The position numbers and the translations under genes were made by a program. From NCBI RefSeq assembly GCF_015040615.1, contig NZ_CP060402.1:1674001-1738000 (forward strand): a DNA stretch of 64,000 bases, in the 5' to 3' direction. Of this stretch, positions 31,962-39,590 are shown piece by piece. Source of the DNA: Microbacterium sp. YJN-G. GTDB taxonomy: Bacteria; Actinomycetota; Actinomycetes; Actinomycetales; Microbacteriaceae. How positions within the stretch are numbered: the stretch's first letter is position 1; each line of letters opens with the position of its first letter. The notes under the pieces were generated by a model. That model worked only from the letters and a program-made list of their open reading frames with translations. It was not told the DNA's origin and did not search any database.

Positions 31962-34082
<2,121 letters not shown>

Positions 34083-34090
34083 AGTTTTCG

Positions 34091-34096
34091 ATTCTA
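34091..34096 (-). promoter_or_regulatory. -10 box TAGAAT, near-leaderless start of parE
   Basis: TAGAAT on the minus strand is 8 nt before the GTG at 34082. It is a near-consensus -10 in otherwise GC-rich DNA. Confidence 0.5.
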
Positions 34097-34263
34097 TCTT
34101 CGACCCCGCACGCCCCGGCACCGCGACACTCCCCCGTGCGCAAGCGGCCGGGCGCCGCGTACGCGCACAGCGAAACACGCCGAGAACCGGGCATGTGTTC
34201 AGCCGGCGCGTGGTTGTATTGAGCACGACCTCGAAACGACCCGACCGCTGAGGAGGCACCGAG

Positions 34264-34479
34264 ATGAACGCTACGACTGAGCGAGAGACCGTCGAGTACC
34301 GCCTCACCGCGATGGACCGGTGCGACTCCTGTGGAGCGCAGGCCTACATCGCTGCCGAGGTGAACGGTACCGAGATGCTCTTCTGCGCACACCACGGACG
34401 CAAGTACGAAGAGAAGCTGCGCGCCGTCGCGACCAGCTGGCACGACGAGACCGCGCGCCTGATCGAACCCAGCAGCTGA
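34264..34479 (+). CDS. Small zinc-binding protein (DUF7455-like)
   Basis: 71 residues from ATG at 34264, with GAGGAGG 7 nt upstream. The CDSCGAQAYIAAEV stretch and FCAHHGRKYEEKL give C-x2-C ... C-x2-H, a likely single zinc site. The pattern matches small actinobacterial proteins now placed in DUF7455, found near sigma-factor and topoisomerase genes; function unknown. The stop codon falls inside a 17-bp tandem repeat (34459-34502), so the last residues IEPSS are encoded by repeat sequence. Confidence 0.75.
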   Translation: MNATTERETVEYRLTAMDRCDSCGAQAYIAAEVNGTEMLFCAHHGRKYEEKLRAVATSWHDETARLIEPSS

Positions 34480-34515: not shown

Positions 34516-35550
34516 TCAGTCGACGAGTACGCGCCTCACCCCGGCAGTCAGCCGCGTGATGATCTCCTCGCCGACCGTGTCGATCCGCTCCGCAAGAGCG
34601 GTGGCATCCGACTCCCCGTCCGCGCCGGGACCGAACACGACGACACGATCGCCGACACGAGCACCCGGCCATGCCTCCACCGTGGTGCTGTCGCCGTCGA
34701 TCGCGATGATCGGGCGCAGACCTCCCGGGGTCGCGACCTCGGCGCCCGTCAGGATCGACGGCAGTCCGTGGAACCCGCCGACGCCGATCCGCACCCGGCC
34801 GTCCTCCACGGCATCCACCGTCGCCACCAGTCGCGAGATCAGCGTCACCCCCTCGAGCTCCGGCCCGTCGGCCGAGCGGATGCCGTAGCAGAACGCGCCG
34901 ATGCGGCTGAGCGAGCCGCGCAGCTCGGGCCGCCACCACGAGGCCGCGGACGCCGTGAGGTGCAGCACCTCGGGGGTGCCGCCGGCATCCGTCAGCTGCT
35001 GGGTCGCGGTGCGGAAGACCTCCTGCGAGGCGTCGTCCTCGTCGTCGCTGGCCTCGGAGAGATGACTCCACACGCCCACGATCCGCGCGATGCCCCGCGC
35101 TTCGGCATTCCGGGCGACGGCGACCGCCTCCGGCCACTCCTCGGGACGGAAGCCGTTGCGGTGCAGGCCCGTGTCGATCTTCAGGTGCAGCCGCACCGCT
35201 GTGCCGACGCTCTCGGCCGCGTCGAGCACGGTGCACAGGTATGCGGCCGTGCCGACGCCGAGGTCGATCCCGGCGCGGATCGCCTGCTCGGCCTCCGCCG
35301 CGGATGAGGTGGCCCAGGCGTACACCCGCCGTGCCGTGTGCTCGCGAATGCGCAGTGCTGTCGGGATGTCGTGCCCGCCGAACCACTCCACGCCGGCGCT
35401 CGCGGCCTCGCCCACGGCCCAGTCGATGCCGTGCCCGTACGCGTCGTCCTTCATGACGAGCATCAGCTCCGACTCGCCCAGGCGCGCCTGCACGGCGGCA
35501 ATGTCGGCGCGGAATGCGCTCCGCGAGATCTCCAGCACTGGGCTGCTCAT
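34516..35550 (-). CDS. alr: Alanine-racemase-like PLP protein, barrel subunit
   Basis: 344 residues from ATG at 35550, which overlaps the previous stop (ATGA). The barrel half of alanine racemase is intact: PLP lysine Lys34 in LVMKDDAYGHG, substrate-carboxylate arginine Arg131 in HLKIDTGLHRNG, His163 in WSHLSEA, LHLTASAAS, and the pyridine-contacting Arg216 in RIGAFCYG. The C-terminal beta domain has diverged. Where homologues carry the SYG.t(Y) tyrosine, the GYADG motif and GRI.MD, this protein reads VRIGVGGFHGLPS and IIAIDGDSTTVEA. The second catalytic base (Tyr265 in the Geobacillus enzyme) is therefore missing. The neighbouring short paralogue has exactly that part. Racemase activity alone is doubtful; a two-subunit enzyme is likely. 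Confidence 0.8.
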   Translation of the reverse strand: MSSPVLEISRSAFRADIAAVQARLGESELMLVMKDDAYGHGIDWAVGEAASAGVEWFGGHDIPTALRIREHTARRVYAWATSSAAEAEQAIRAGIDLGVGTAAYLCTVLDAAESVGTAVRLHLKIDTGLHRNGFRPEEWPEAVAVARNAEARGIARIVGVWSHLSEASDDEDDASQEVFRTATQQLTDAGGTPEVLHLTASAASWWRPELRGSLSRIGAFCYGIRSADGPELEGVTLISRLVATVDAVEDGRVRIGVGGFHGLPSILTGAEVATPGGLRPIIAIDGDSTTVEAWPGARVGDRVVVFGPGADGESDATALAERIDTVGEEIITRLTAGVRRVLVD

Positions 35551-36239
35551 GCGATCCACTCCCGCTCGACATGCCGGCCGGTGACGACGGCCATCTCCAG
35601 GGCGGTCAGGCCGGTGGCCTGCGACCAGCGGCCGAGGGCGTCGCGCATCGCGCCGGTACCCCCGAAGTAGACGACGGCGCTGCCGGCATCGGCATCCGCC
35701 CCTTCCAGATCGACCACGCACACGTCCATGGCGATGCGCCCGACGATGGGGTGCGTGCGCTCGCCGACCTGCACGCGCACCCGGTTGCCGAGCGCCCTCA
35801 GGATCCCCTGGGCGTAGCCGCCGGTGACGAGCGCGACCGTCGTGTCGCGCTCGGCACGATGCGTGTACCCGTACGAGACCGCCTCGCCGGCCAGCAGCGG
35901 CTTGGTGGAGAGGACGTGGCCCTCCAGCCGCATCACCGGCTCGGCGGGTGGAATCATCGACGCATCCGGGATGCCGAACAGCCGGTGCGGTCCGGCATCG
36001 GCGGCGCCGTCGATCACCACCGGGATGCCGACGGGCGTCAGGCGGTCCGCCATCTCCGGCCCGTCCACGAGGATCCCGGTGGCACCGGCCCGCGCGACGA
36101 TCGGTGCGACCTCATCGGCTCCGTGCCCGTAGGCGTCATGCCGCAGATCCGCGAGCCCGCCGACGGAGAGCAGCGCGGCGGCATTGCGCTCGAGCGCACT
36201 CCGGGAGAGGATCGCGCGTGGCGCGGCGCTGCCTGGCAT
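35547..36239 (-). CDS. Short alanine-racemase-like protein, C-domain subunit
   Basis: 230 residues from ATG at 36239, against about 370 for normal alanine racemases. The start keeps DAYGHG, but the PLP lysine is replaced by Arg33 (ADLRHDAYGHG). After GIPVVIDG the chain jumps to the C-terminal domain, so about 150 residues of barrel are missing. That domain is canonical: VSYGYTHRAE with Tyr123, TGGYAQGILR, and PIVGRIAMDVCVVD with Met171-Asp172. It cannot form a complete site by itself. It lies 14 bp after gatD and overlaps the long paralogue by 4 bases. In normal homodimers the tyrosine comes from the partner chain, so it may complete the long subunit's site. Neighbour overlaps argue against a decayed pseudogene. 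Confidence 0.75.
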   Translation of the reverse strand: MPGSAAPRAILSRSALERNAAALLSVGGLADLRHDAYGHGADEVAPIVARAGATGILVDGPEMADRLTPVGIPVVIDGAADAGPHRLFGIPDASMIPPAEPVMRLEGHVLSTKPLLAGEAVSYGYTHRAERDTTVALVTGGYAQGILRALGNRVRVQVGERTHPIVGRIAMDVCVVDLEGADADAGSAVVYFGGTGAMRDALGRWSQATGLTALEMAVVTGRHVEREWIA

Positions 36240-36253
36240 GTCTCGCCTCCGAC

Positions 36254-37027
36254 TCAGAGCTGGATGGTGTTGAAGCCCTTGCCGTGCACGAGCGACTCGA
36301 TGGCGGCGCGGGCGCCTGCGGCGTAGGCGTCGAGCGATTCGACGTCGCGGCCGAGGTCGAGCTCGATGCCGCGCCGGTTCGCGACCGCGGTGAGCAGCTC
36401 GCGTGAGAGCTCGGGATTCAGCGGCAGCAGCGGGCCCTGCACGTTCGACGCGAAGGCGTTCTGCACACGCACCAGTTCGCCGCGCGCGGATGCCTGCCCC
36501 GCTGCGGGAACCGCGAAGCTGCCCTGGCCGAAGGCCACCCGGCCGAAGCCGTGCTCGGGGTTCGCGAGGGTCCACTCGCTGGCGTAGTCCTCGAATCCGA
36601 TGACCCGGCCGGCGGCGGTCTCGACGACGATGTAGCCGACCTTACGGCGACGGGTGCGCTCGACCTGTGCGTCGAACACGCCAAGGCCGTCGAGCCGCTC
36701 GCCGTCCAGCGTCGTGACGCCGCTGCTGAGCAGCTCGGCGCCACCGCCGACGGCCAGCAGAGCGCCACCGTCCGCCACGAAGGAGCGGATGCCGTCACCG
36801 CGAGCGGCCAGATCGGCGTGCACGCCGCGCATGGCCGACAGCGGTCCGTTGCCGATGATCAGGATGTCGAGGTCCGCGGGCAGCTCGTCGCCGACGGCCA
36901 CGGGATGGAACCCGACCGTCACGCCGGCTCGCTCGAGGCGACGCTGCAGGGCGCGGACGTTGCCGCGGTCGCCGGTGACGCCGAGCGTGTCGGGGTAGAG
37001 CTGGGCGATGCGCACGGTCGTGGTCAT
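36254..37027 (-). CDS. gatD: GatD-like glutamine amidotransferase without catalytic residues
   Basis: 257 residues from ATG at 37027, overlapping the murT stop (ATGA). GatD normally releases ammonia from glutamine for MurT, which amidates the alpha-carboxyl of D-Glu in lipid II. The fold is recognisable: RIAQLYPDTLGVTGDRGNV, IIGNGPLSAM, VIGFEDYASEW, GPLLPLNPELS. The nucleophile elbow that should read (V/I)CGGYQ is AVGGGAELL, with Gly94 in place of Cys. The histidine before GP(L/V)LP.NP is Gln197. The whole protein has no cysteine, so glutaminase activity is not expected. It may be a structural partner of MurT or have another role. Confidence 0.8.
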   Translation of the reverse strand: MTTTVRIAQLYPDTLGVTGDRGNVRALQRRLERAGVTVGFHPVAVGDELPADLDILIIGNGPLSAMRGVHADLAARGDGIRSFVADGGALLAVGGGAELLSSGVTTLDGERLDGLGVFDAQVERTRRRKVGYIVVETAAGRVIGFEDYASEWTLANPEHGFGRVAFGQGSFAVPAAGQASARGELVRVQNAFASNVQGPLLPLNPELSRELLTAVANRRGIELDLGRDVESLDAYAAGARAAIESLVHGKGFNTIQL

Positions 37028-38339
37028 CGGCGGGCCACCTCCTGGTCGCCGTGGCCGAGGATCCTGCGGCCGATCATCATGAGCTCGTAGTTCACGAACC
37101 AGGTCTGCCGTCCGGCAGCCGTCGGCGGCAGCTCGCGCATCATCGCGACCGCCTTCTCCATGTCGGGTTCGACGGTTCCGATGCGCACCCCGGCGTGCTC
37201 GAGCGCCAGCGCGAGCTGGTACGCCTTCTCGCCGGTGACGACATCCACCGACTCCAGCGCGTCGAAGTCCACGTCGTACAGCCACGACACGTCGGGCGTG
37301 CCCTCGTCGATGGCGATCAGCGCGTGCTCGGGCGTGCCGTCCAGCGCATCCAGGTTCATCTGCAGGCTGGGGGCGTTCTTGAACATGACGAACTCGACCT
37401 GCTCGCCGGCGGGGTCGCGTCGCAGCGGGATGACCTCGCCGCGCCCGTAGGCGGGCGCCATGCGGGCGAAGCCGTCCGCGGCGCGGTCGACGGAGAACCC
37501 CTCGCCGAGCACGCGGGATGCCACCGCCAGCGCCGCCGCGGCGTCGGCCGCGTAGTGCAGGCCGCGCGCGGGAAGCCGCACCGCAGCATCCTGCCCCCCG
37601 ACCCGCACCGTGACGTCGCGGCCGTCGACGCCGCGCACCTCGGAGTACGCATCGCGCGTCTGGATGCCGGCGTTGCCGCTGCGCGTGTCGGCCGCGTTCG
37701 AGAGCCCGTGCGCGGAGGCCGCGACGATCTCGGGCGCGACGCCGAAGAACGACACCGGCGCCCGCATGGCGGACACGTCGATCTTGCTCAGATACGGGTC
37801 ATCGCGGTTGACCACGACGTGCGAATGCGCGCGCTTCGATGCCTCGAGCATCATGTCGGCGACGCGCTCGGTCTCGTAGAACCGGTACAGCTGGTCGACC
37901 TGAACGTTCAGCGACAGGATGACCGCAGGCGAGAGCTGGTCGGCCAGGTCGGCCGCGTAGCCCTCATCGACCTCCAGCACCGCCACATCGGCGCGGATGC
38001 GGCCGGTGAGGGTGGCGTCCGCGAGCAGTGCGCTGGTGACGCCCTGCGGCAGGTTCGCGCCCGTCGGGTTCGTGAACACCTTCAGCCCGTGCGCCCGCAG
38101 GATCTCGCTGACCATATGGGTCGTCGTCGTCTTGCCGTTCGAGCCCAGCACGAACACCACGCCGTACCGGAACTGGTCGGCGAGGGTCGGCAGCAGCGAG
38201 GGTGCCAGACGGTTGGTGAGGTAACCAGGGAACGCCGAGCCTCCCCCGCGCAGGCGGGTCGCGAAACGCGCGACCTTGCCCGCCAACACGGGGAAGACGT
38301 ACCGCAGACCGGCTGACCTGGCCTGGGGCGCCGCCGACA

Positions 38340-38343
<4 letters not shown>
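37024..38343 (-). CDS. murT: MurT-like Mur ligase without zinc ribbon
   Basis: 439 residues from ATG at 38343 (or 38340; ATGATG), overlapping the sigA stop. Mur-ligase parts are intact: P-loop [10 protein letters not shown] (Lys71), [21 protein letters not shown], and the C-terminal [11 protein letters not shown] with the acidic residue that in S. aureus MurT completes the GatD triad. Canonical MurT carries a four-cysteine zinc ribbon after the VVVN.DDP segment. Here the corresponding stretch, about 202-260, has none, and the protein has no cysteine at all. The usual KNPAG motif reads KNAPSLQ. It should still activate a carboxyl group with ATP. Together with the cysteine-free GatD this suggests a changed amine donor. 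Confidence 0.82.

Positions 38344-39590
<1,247 letters not shown>

Follow-up and report, generated by a model that had tools for sequence, protein, structure and literature searches.

Two adjacent alanine racemase-like genes in the window

The window analysed here is a stretch of 64,000 nucleotides from Microbacterium sp. YJN-G (contig NZ_CP060402.1, positions 1,674,001 to 1,738,000). It carries two adjacent genes whose products resemble alanine racemase (Alr), hereafter denoted SHORT and LONG, for which an earlier reading of the sequence (the original prediction) had proposed an obligate heterodimer with one composite active site. Both genes lie on the minus strand; a plus-strand translation of positions 34516-36239 was tried and rejected as meaningless.

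34516..35550, minus strand: LONG subunit gene, 344 amino acids (Pfam, residue checks, alignments)
35547..36239, minus strand: SHORT subunit gene, 230 amino acids (Pfam, residue checks, alignments)
35547..35550, minus strand: ATGA overlap of four bases, SHORT stop and LONG start (coordinates)

Translational coupling of SHORT and LONG through the ATGA overlap is likely; among 109 loci compared, which include four copies of the window pair, 93 have an overlap of this length.

Domains and active site residues

The pair has the Alr fold (fold type III), with a TIM barrel and a β C-terminal domain. LONG matches Ala_racemase_N at residues 8-225 (147.5 bits) and Ala_racemase_C weakly (27.0 bits, cut-off 25), and Ala_racemase_C is the sole Pfam match of SHORT (96 bits). 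Against the alanine racemase equivalog TIGR00492, LONG scores 106.8 and SHORT 91.5 bits, both below the curated cut-off of 168. Profile scores alone do not safely separate SHORT or LONG from Alr, and pairs were therefore recognised by adjacency and residues.

The LONG barrel holds the pyridoxal 5′-phosphate (PLP) lysine, Lys34 (in VMKDDAYGHG), together with Tyr38, Lys124, Arg131, His163 and Arg216. SHORT has Arg33 at the PLP-lysine position, and carries the SYG motif with Tyr123, GYAQG, Arg168, and GRIAMD with Met171-Asp172. Neither chain thus bears both catalytic bases, as a single Alr chain does. Translation of the minus strand bore out the original prediction for Lys34, Arg131, His163 and Arg216 of LONG, and for Arg33 and the SYG, GYAQG and GRIAMD motifs of SHORT. 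It had also described the LONG sequence at the tyrosine region and GRI.MD as unrelated to Alr; the loss is real, but alignment with complete Alr sequences reveals a C-terminal domain that is degenerate and lacks the catalytic Tyr and Met, its tyrosine segment having gone by deletion. The barrel of SHORT is truncated as proposed, although by an estimated 130-135 residues rather than about 150, with approximately 98 residues ahead of the C-terminal domain compared with approximately 232 in LONG.

The inner-gate position (Tyr354 in Geobacillus Alr) is occupied by Glu328 in LONG and Leu214 in SHORT, so that, as the original prediction had it, neither chain supplies the gate tyrosine. All 19 single complete Alr sequences compared (L001, L239-L256) have Tyr there. 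In an AlphaFold model of a SHORT-LONG fusion, the LONG part aligns with Alr over 343 residues at 32% identity.

Conservation of the complementary losses

A scan of named genomes found 131 SHORT relatives, nearly all of them Microbacterium by name, and the best 80 were kept; at all 80, LONG sequence lies directly downstream of SHORT. SHORT orthologues full of stops or frameshifts, which would speak against a functional pair, were not seen among these best 80 of 131 loci: SHORT is frame-broken at L081 only, and LONG at L044 and L062, where the breaks point to sequence error because gyrA or gyrB is broken there too. At L112, LONG ends at the contig end.

For residue counts, 100 distinct pairs were used (99 and the window). 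These exclude copies of the window pair (L002, L007, L008, L009), canonical Alr loci (L001, L006, L037, L038), L044 and L062 (LONG fragmented) and loci that share an identical SHORT, and include L081, where the SHORT break is N-terminal, and L112. Lys34, Tyr38, Lys124, Arg131 and His163 of LONG are each present in 100 of 100 pairs, as are Tyr123, Met171 and Asp172 of SHORT. At its lysine position SHORT never has lysine (R 86, A 12, T 1, D 1). In an alignment with seven complete Alr sequences, the catalytic tyrosine column of LONG is a gap in all 100 rows and the Met column is never Met; a plain search finds the string SYG in two LONG rows, though their aligned tyrosine column is also gapped. 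The LONG inner gate is Glu in 99 rows, the remaining one being a gap (L112).

The search was widened to 299 genomes of Microbacteriaceae, at least 70 of which have an adjacent pair, tandem full-length pairs included. Thirty loci from 13 genus groups were compared (six from the Microbacterium group g1, including the window; other genera are given as group codes). At each of the 30, SHORT and LONG are adjacent, LONG has the Lys, Arg and His and a gapped tyrosine column, and SHORT lacks the lysine and keeps Tyr, Met and Asp; the LONG gate is evenly divided between Glu (15 loci) and Asp (15 loci). As judged from these alignments, the complementary pattern is not a matter of chance, since it is kept in all 100 distinct Microbacterium pairs.

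Crude dN/dS is below 1 for all comparisons at dS 0.1-0.9, with medians of 0.54 for SHORT (1346 pairs) and 0.49 for LONG (1809 pairs); between the window and L043 it is 0.37 for SHORT and 0.26 for LONG. Across 99 pairs the SHORT distances track the LONG distances with a correlation of 0.88, a value that shared descent alone could yield.

A reciprocal pair in genus g99

The five genomes sampled from genus g99 (G134, G196, G248, G294, G334; stretches L161 and L259-L262; each 99% complete) have exactly four PF00842 hits each, all within two split pairs, and no intact Alr was found in the five by this PF00842 search. Pair 1 is of the common SHORT-LONG type with an acidic gate. Pair 2 keeps Tyr354 and lies upstream of tsaE and tsaB in all five, with glmM and tsaD also identified in L161. 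Its LONG2 retains the lysine side, with the tyrosine replaced by Arg or His and the Met by Ser (5/5); its SHORT2 has Thr at the lysine position, a truncated barrel, and Tyr, Met and Asp (5/5).

LONG2 groups with canonical Alr in a full-length tree, and in a C-terminal-domain tree SHORT2 falls inside the acid-gate group (support 98), with the other SHORT rows outside. This placement indicates that the roles are swapped in pair 2, a reading that is well supported, and the gene order, Tyr-derived then acid-derived, is retained. A swapped-role pair is what would be predicted if a heterodimer with two composite sites could lose either one. If racemisation is the sole source of D-alanine in g99, split pair 2 must be an active alanine racemase.

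Intermediates, fusions and origin

At nine loci from seven genus groups, two full-length Alr genes stand in tandem, each retaining the lysine, the tyrosine and the Met; the first copy has Tyr354 and the second Asp or Glu at the gate, and tsaE adjoins all nine. At two loci of genus g53 (L223, L224) the Tyr-gate copy has Asn for Asp313, and neither copy has the carbamylated lysine (Lys129), which is replaced by Gly, Cys or Val. At L222 (2662-4581, plus strand) and L225 (719-3577, minus strand) the acid-gate copy is apparently fused in frame to TsaE, the open frames being 594 and 562 amino acids from the assumed start.

Elsewhere, SHORT is full-length or nearly so, and lysine-less, beside LONG (L136-L138, L141, L232, L233, L236, L238), or is truncated down to a near-bare C-terminal domain (L229, L230, L234, L235); the K that aligns at the lysine position in L229 comes from unrelated sequence upstream. 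L257, L258 and L264 were also retrieved but play no part in the comparisons. Two genomes, G299 and G339, encode both halves in a single open frame, the N-terminal half lacking the lysine but having Tyr, Met and Asp, and the C-terminal half having the lysine, lacking the tyrosine and carrying Glu at the gate. These natural fusions argue for interaction between SHORT and LONG.

The full-length tree unites LONG with the intact acid-gate copies (SH-aLRT 98). LONG rows are intermixed with these acid-gate rows, and monophyly of LONG is disfavoured (AU p 0.032), a hint that loss occurred more than once, although the number of losses is tentative. These are quick trees with long branches; the C-terminal-domain tree has 131 columns, excludes LONG rows and leaves many forks open. 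The best explanation of the sequence data is that the pair arose by tandem alr duplication, with one copy gaining an acidic inner gate.

Gene neighbourhood

On the minus strand of the window the genes form a compact row: sigma factor gene, murT-like, gatD-like, SHORT, LONG, gyrB. Four-base overlaps join murT to the sigma factor gene and to gatD, as they do SHORT to LONG.

36254..37027, minus strand: gatD-like glutamine amidotransferase gene, directly upstream of SHORT in the same orientation
37024..38343, minus strand: murT-like Mur ligase gene, overlapping gatD by four bases
38340..39590, minus strand: principal sigma factor gene, named by eye without a domain call; it forms the conserved upstream border
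31962..34307, minus strand: gyrB, named by eye; conserved downstream border, with the true start probably well inside the open frame

Between gyrB and LONG lies a small zinc-ribbon-like gene (34264-34479, plus strand), which by eye resembles the DUF7455 neighbour of relatives; a short direct repeat follows it, just ahead of the LONG stop. One complete alr, with Tyr354 kept and tsaE following it, was found elsewhere in the genome, a possibility raised in the original prediction.

Twenty wider stretches were inspected; L161 is the special second pair, and in the other 19 gyrB is near the pair in all 19, a sigma factor gene was recognised in 17 and a murT or PF01996 gene in 18, L154 having neither. 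At L238, a smaller stretch, the sigma factor gene adjoins the pair and there is no ligase of either type. Some Microbacterium pair copies are located elsewhere (L101, L103, L107, L110, L113).

Among 35 Microbacterium genomes, the pair is present in 28 and missing in seven. GatD occurs in exactly seven genomes and a PF01996 gene in the other 28, none having both or neither; the pair is found in 7/7 of the former and 21/28 of the latter. The PF01996 gene (F420-0:glutamyl ligase-like; for example L045:4072-4779, plus strand) follows the sigma factor gene, as murT-gatD does, at the loci inspected. MurT-GatD is described as the amidating enzyme for stem-peptide D-glutamate (PMC3266927 and others), and the PF01996 ligase may stand in its place for modifying peptidoglycan D-glutamate.

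An ATP-grasp gene (PF14397) adjoins the pair in 20 of the 21 pair-bearing PF01996 genomes (the exception being G005), and so in 20 of all 35. Examples are L045:4885-5901 (minus strand), L101:4967-5986 and L113:4964-5989, and such genes also stand beside some of the moved pair copies. In the pair-lacking genomes the locus has two ATP-grasp genes in tandem (G008, G013, G015), one (G018, G025, G031) or none (G012). The PF14397 genes are possibly cross-bridge amino acid ligases, and the locus as a whole looks like one that sets cell-wall chemistry.

Substrate

In the Alr fold the gate residue is linked to the substrate, being Thr or Ala in lysine-preferring racemases and Asn in VanT (PMC3485190, available portion). 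The pair likewise has its gate tyrosine replaced, not by the Asn of VanT but by Glu or Asp, which suggests a substrate with a basic side chain. This acidic gate and the intact alr elsewhere in the genome support the original prediction of a substrate possibly other than alanine.

Microbacterium species contain D-ornithine, L-lysine or 2,4-diaminobutyrate. Those listed with D-ornithine in the portion of PMC10757982 available are M. sufflavum, M. galbinum, the M. liquefaciens cluster and the M. testaceum cluster except M. enclense; those with L-lysine are M. enclense, M. gubbeenense, M. imperiale and M. arborescens. Named pair carriers among the best 80 of 131 loci include D-ornithine species of those clusters. 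No M. enclense, M. gubbeenense, M. imperiale or M. arborescens is among these 80 loci, which is not a test of absence. The pair-lacking genome G012 was considered as a possible M. enclense of the testaceum clade and rejected: in the gyr region it is most similar to M. gallinarum (L105, 84.9%), and its 12 best gyr-region matches include no M. testaceum locus.

Proposed mechanism and alternatives

The pair is, by its domains and residues, a two-gene variant of the Alr family, and probably a diamino acid racemase. We propose that SHORT and LONG form an obligate heterodimeric, PLP-dependent amino acid racemase of the Alr fold with a single composite active site and a D-diamino acid as probable product, a reading to which we assign a probability of roughly 0.88. 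In this enzyme PLP would be carried by Lys34 of the LONG barrel, and the opposite catalytic base, Tyr123, together with Met171-Asp172, would come from the SHORT C-terminal domain. The mirror site, formed by the SHORT barrel and the LONG C-terminal domain, would be dead, and it is exactly these two parts that have decayed together. We infer the interaction, catalysis, obligate pairing and substrate from sequence; the heterodimer itself is well supported by evolutionary evidence, namely the complementary losses, the two natural fusions, the complete tandem relatives and the swapped pair of g99. With Glu or Asp where Alr has Tyr354, and with cell-wall genes as neighbours, the probable product is a D-diamino acid, most likely D-ornithine for Microbacterium peptidoglycan.

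The following points weigh against this proposal. The model of the SHORT-LONG fusion is of moderate quality (predicted TM-score, pTM, 0.74), and that of the natural fusion L227, from a shallow alignment, reaches a pTM of 0.51; L227 was folded with SHORT rows only, as these fell onto the LONG half once LONG rows were added. The Asp of the Met-Asp motif is kept in 16 of the 100 Microbacterium LONG rows and in 24 of the 30 wider ones, the dN/dS medians of both chains are not low, and the trees do not place the long-branched SHORT rows securely. The substrate assignment draws on one gate residue, the neighbouring genes and published chemotypes; the pair-chemotype correlation is one-sided, covering named D-ornithine species only. 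Described lysine-preferring racemases have Thr or Ala at the gate and not an acidic residue, and the lysine racemase Lyr lost only about half its activity with Tyr put there (PMC3485190, available portion). MurE was tried as a marker of cell-wall type and rejected, giving one nearly discriminating column only (seven pair-lacking versus 27 other rows, with G018's distant second MurE excluded and G007 without a match).

MurE is itself varied in the genus: G018 and G004 (L169, L170) have a MurE unlike that of other Microbacterium, at approximately 38% identity to that of the window genome. G018 carries both kinds and G004 solely the divergent one, and in G007 no match to MurE passed the limit applied.

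Among alternatives, the one with most in its favour, though we regard it as distinctly less probable than D-ornithine, is that the product is D-lysine or D-2,4-diaminobutyrate, or depends on the genus. The even split of Glu and Asp gates over the 30 LONG rows of 13 genus groups, and the diversity of Microbacterium chemotypes, would fit this; the named Microbacterium carriers of stated chemotype are, however, D-ornithine species (PMC10757982, available portion). It is unlikely that the heterodimer is a second alanine (or serine) racemase. Overall family membership is in line with such an activity, and pair 2 of g99, keeping Tyr354 beside tsaE, makes it plausible that split pairs can racemise alanine, but every LONG row save the one cut short at L112 has an acidic gate (99 of the 100 Microbacterium rows and all 30 further ones), an intact Tyr354 alr is present in the same genome, and the pair is missing from seven of the 35 Microbacterium genomes, and in these seven the locus differs in its ATP-grasp genes. 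We give very little credence to LONG acting alone, with another residue replacing the catalytic tyrosine and SHORT as a regulatory or stabilising subunit: LONG does keep the whole barrel and its catalytic residues and is modelled as a full Alr chain, yet SHORT keeps precisely Tyr, Met and Asp even as a near-bare C-terminal domain, and the only Alr C-terminal domains of g99 sit in split pairs, one of them role-swapped. Decaying alr pseudogenes, suggested by the half-site missing from each chain and by frame-breaks at three of the best 80 of 131 loci, can practically be dismissed: each kept half has catalytic residues that do not vary across 100 pairs averaging about 55% identity, the overlap and gene order are conserved, and pairs occur in 13 genus groups.

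Taken together with g99, the proposed heterodimer fits a wider scheme that we consider reasonably probable. An ancestral Alr/Alr* heterodimer would have had two composite sites, one with a Tyr gate for alanine and one with an acidic gate for a diamino acid; either site could then be lost, depending on lineage, through decay of exactly one barrel together with the C-terminal domain opposite it, so that heterodimers with a single site would have arisen both ways. The outcomes would be diamino acid racemases at the cell-wall locus, with the window pair serving as the D-ornithine racemase of Microbacterium peptidoglycan, and a split alanine racemase at the alr-tsaE place in g99. The geometry of Alr, with sites shared between chains, seems to have made an obligate two-gene enzyme out of a homodimer, with living intermediates in the form of the intact tandem pair, the lysine-less full-length partner, the truncated partner, the near-bare C-terminal domain and the fusion. 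This series and the swapped reciprocal case would constitute a rare and testable record of obligate heteromers evolving by loss. The pair is also a candidate source of peptidoglycan D-ornithine, a trait long used in classifying these bacteria, at a locus whose ligases and racemase are exchanged among species.

Comparison with known systems

Alanine racemase is a textbook homodimer in which each active site is built from both chains. The pair shares its fold (PF01168 and PF00842; for example Streptomyces coelicolor 5fag and Geobacillus 1sft), with the PLP lysine in the barrel and the tyrosine and Met-Asp in a C-terminal domain that reaches the partner's site; it differs in having the half-sites on separate genes, with one proposed site rather than two, in the loss of most of the barrel from SHORT, and in Glu or Asp for the inner-gate tyrosine.

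Enzyme-prozyme pairs, of which trypanosome deoxyhypusine synthase is an example, are active heteromers assembled from paralogues whose sites are complementary or dead, although fold and pathway are unrelated to Alr; we know of no such pair with the Alr fold. No publication on a split or heterodimeric Alr, or on a Microbacterium ornithine racemase, was found in a literature search of partial coverage. In Enterococcus faecium, an aspartate racemase gene lies beside that of an ATP-grasp D-aspartate ligase for the peptidoglycan cross-bridge. That racemase is of another family and acts on another amino acid, the window locus has murT-gatD and not an ATP-grasp gene, and the role of the ATP-grasp genes in other Microbacterium is putative.

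Also related are racemases of the Alr fold in which the inner-gate position is altered. Lyr and Bar, with lysine and arginine as substrates, have lost the gate tyrosine as the pair has, but are homodimers of complete chains with Thr or Ala rather than an acidic residue at the gate (PMC3485190, available portion). The VanT serine racemase (4ecl), an enzyme of vancomycin resistance, is likewise altered at the gate in a manner linked to its substrate, but is a complete chain with Asn there, in contrast to the acidic gate of the two-gene enzyme proposed here.
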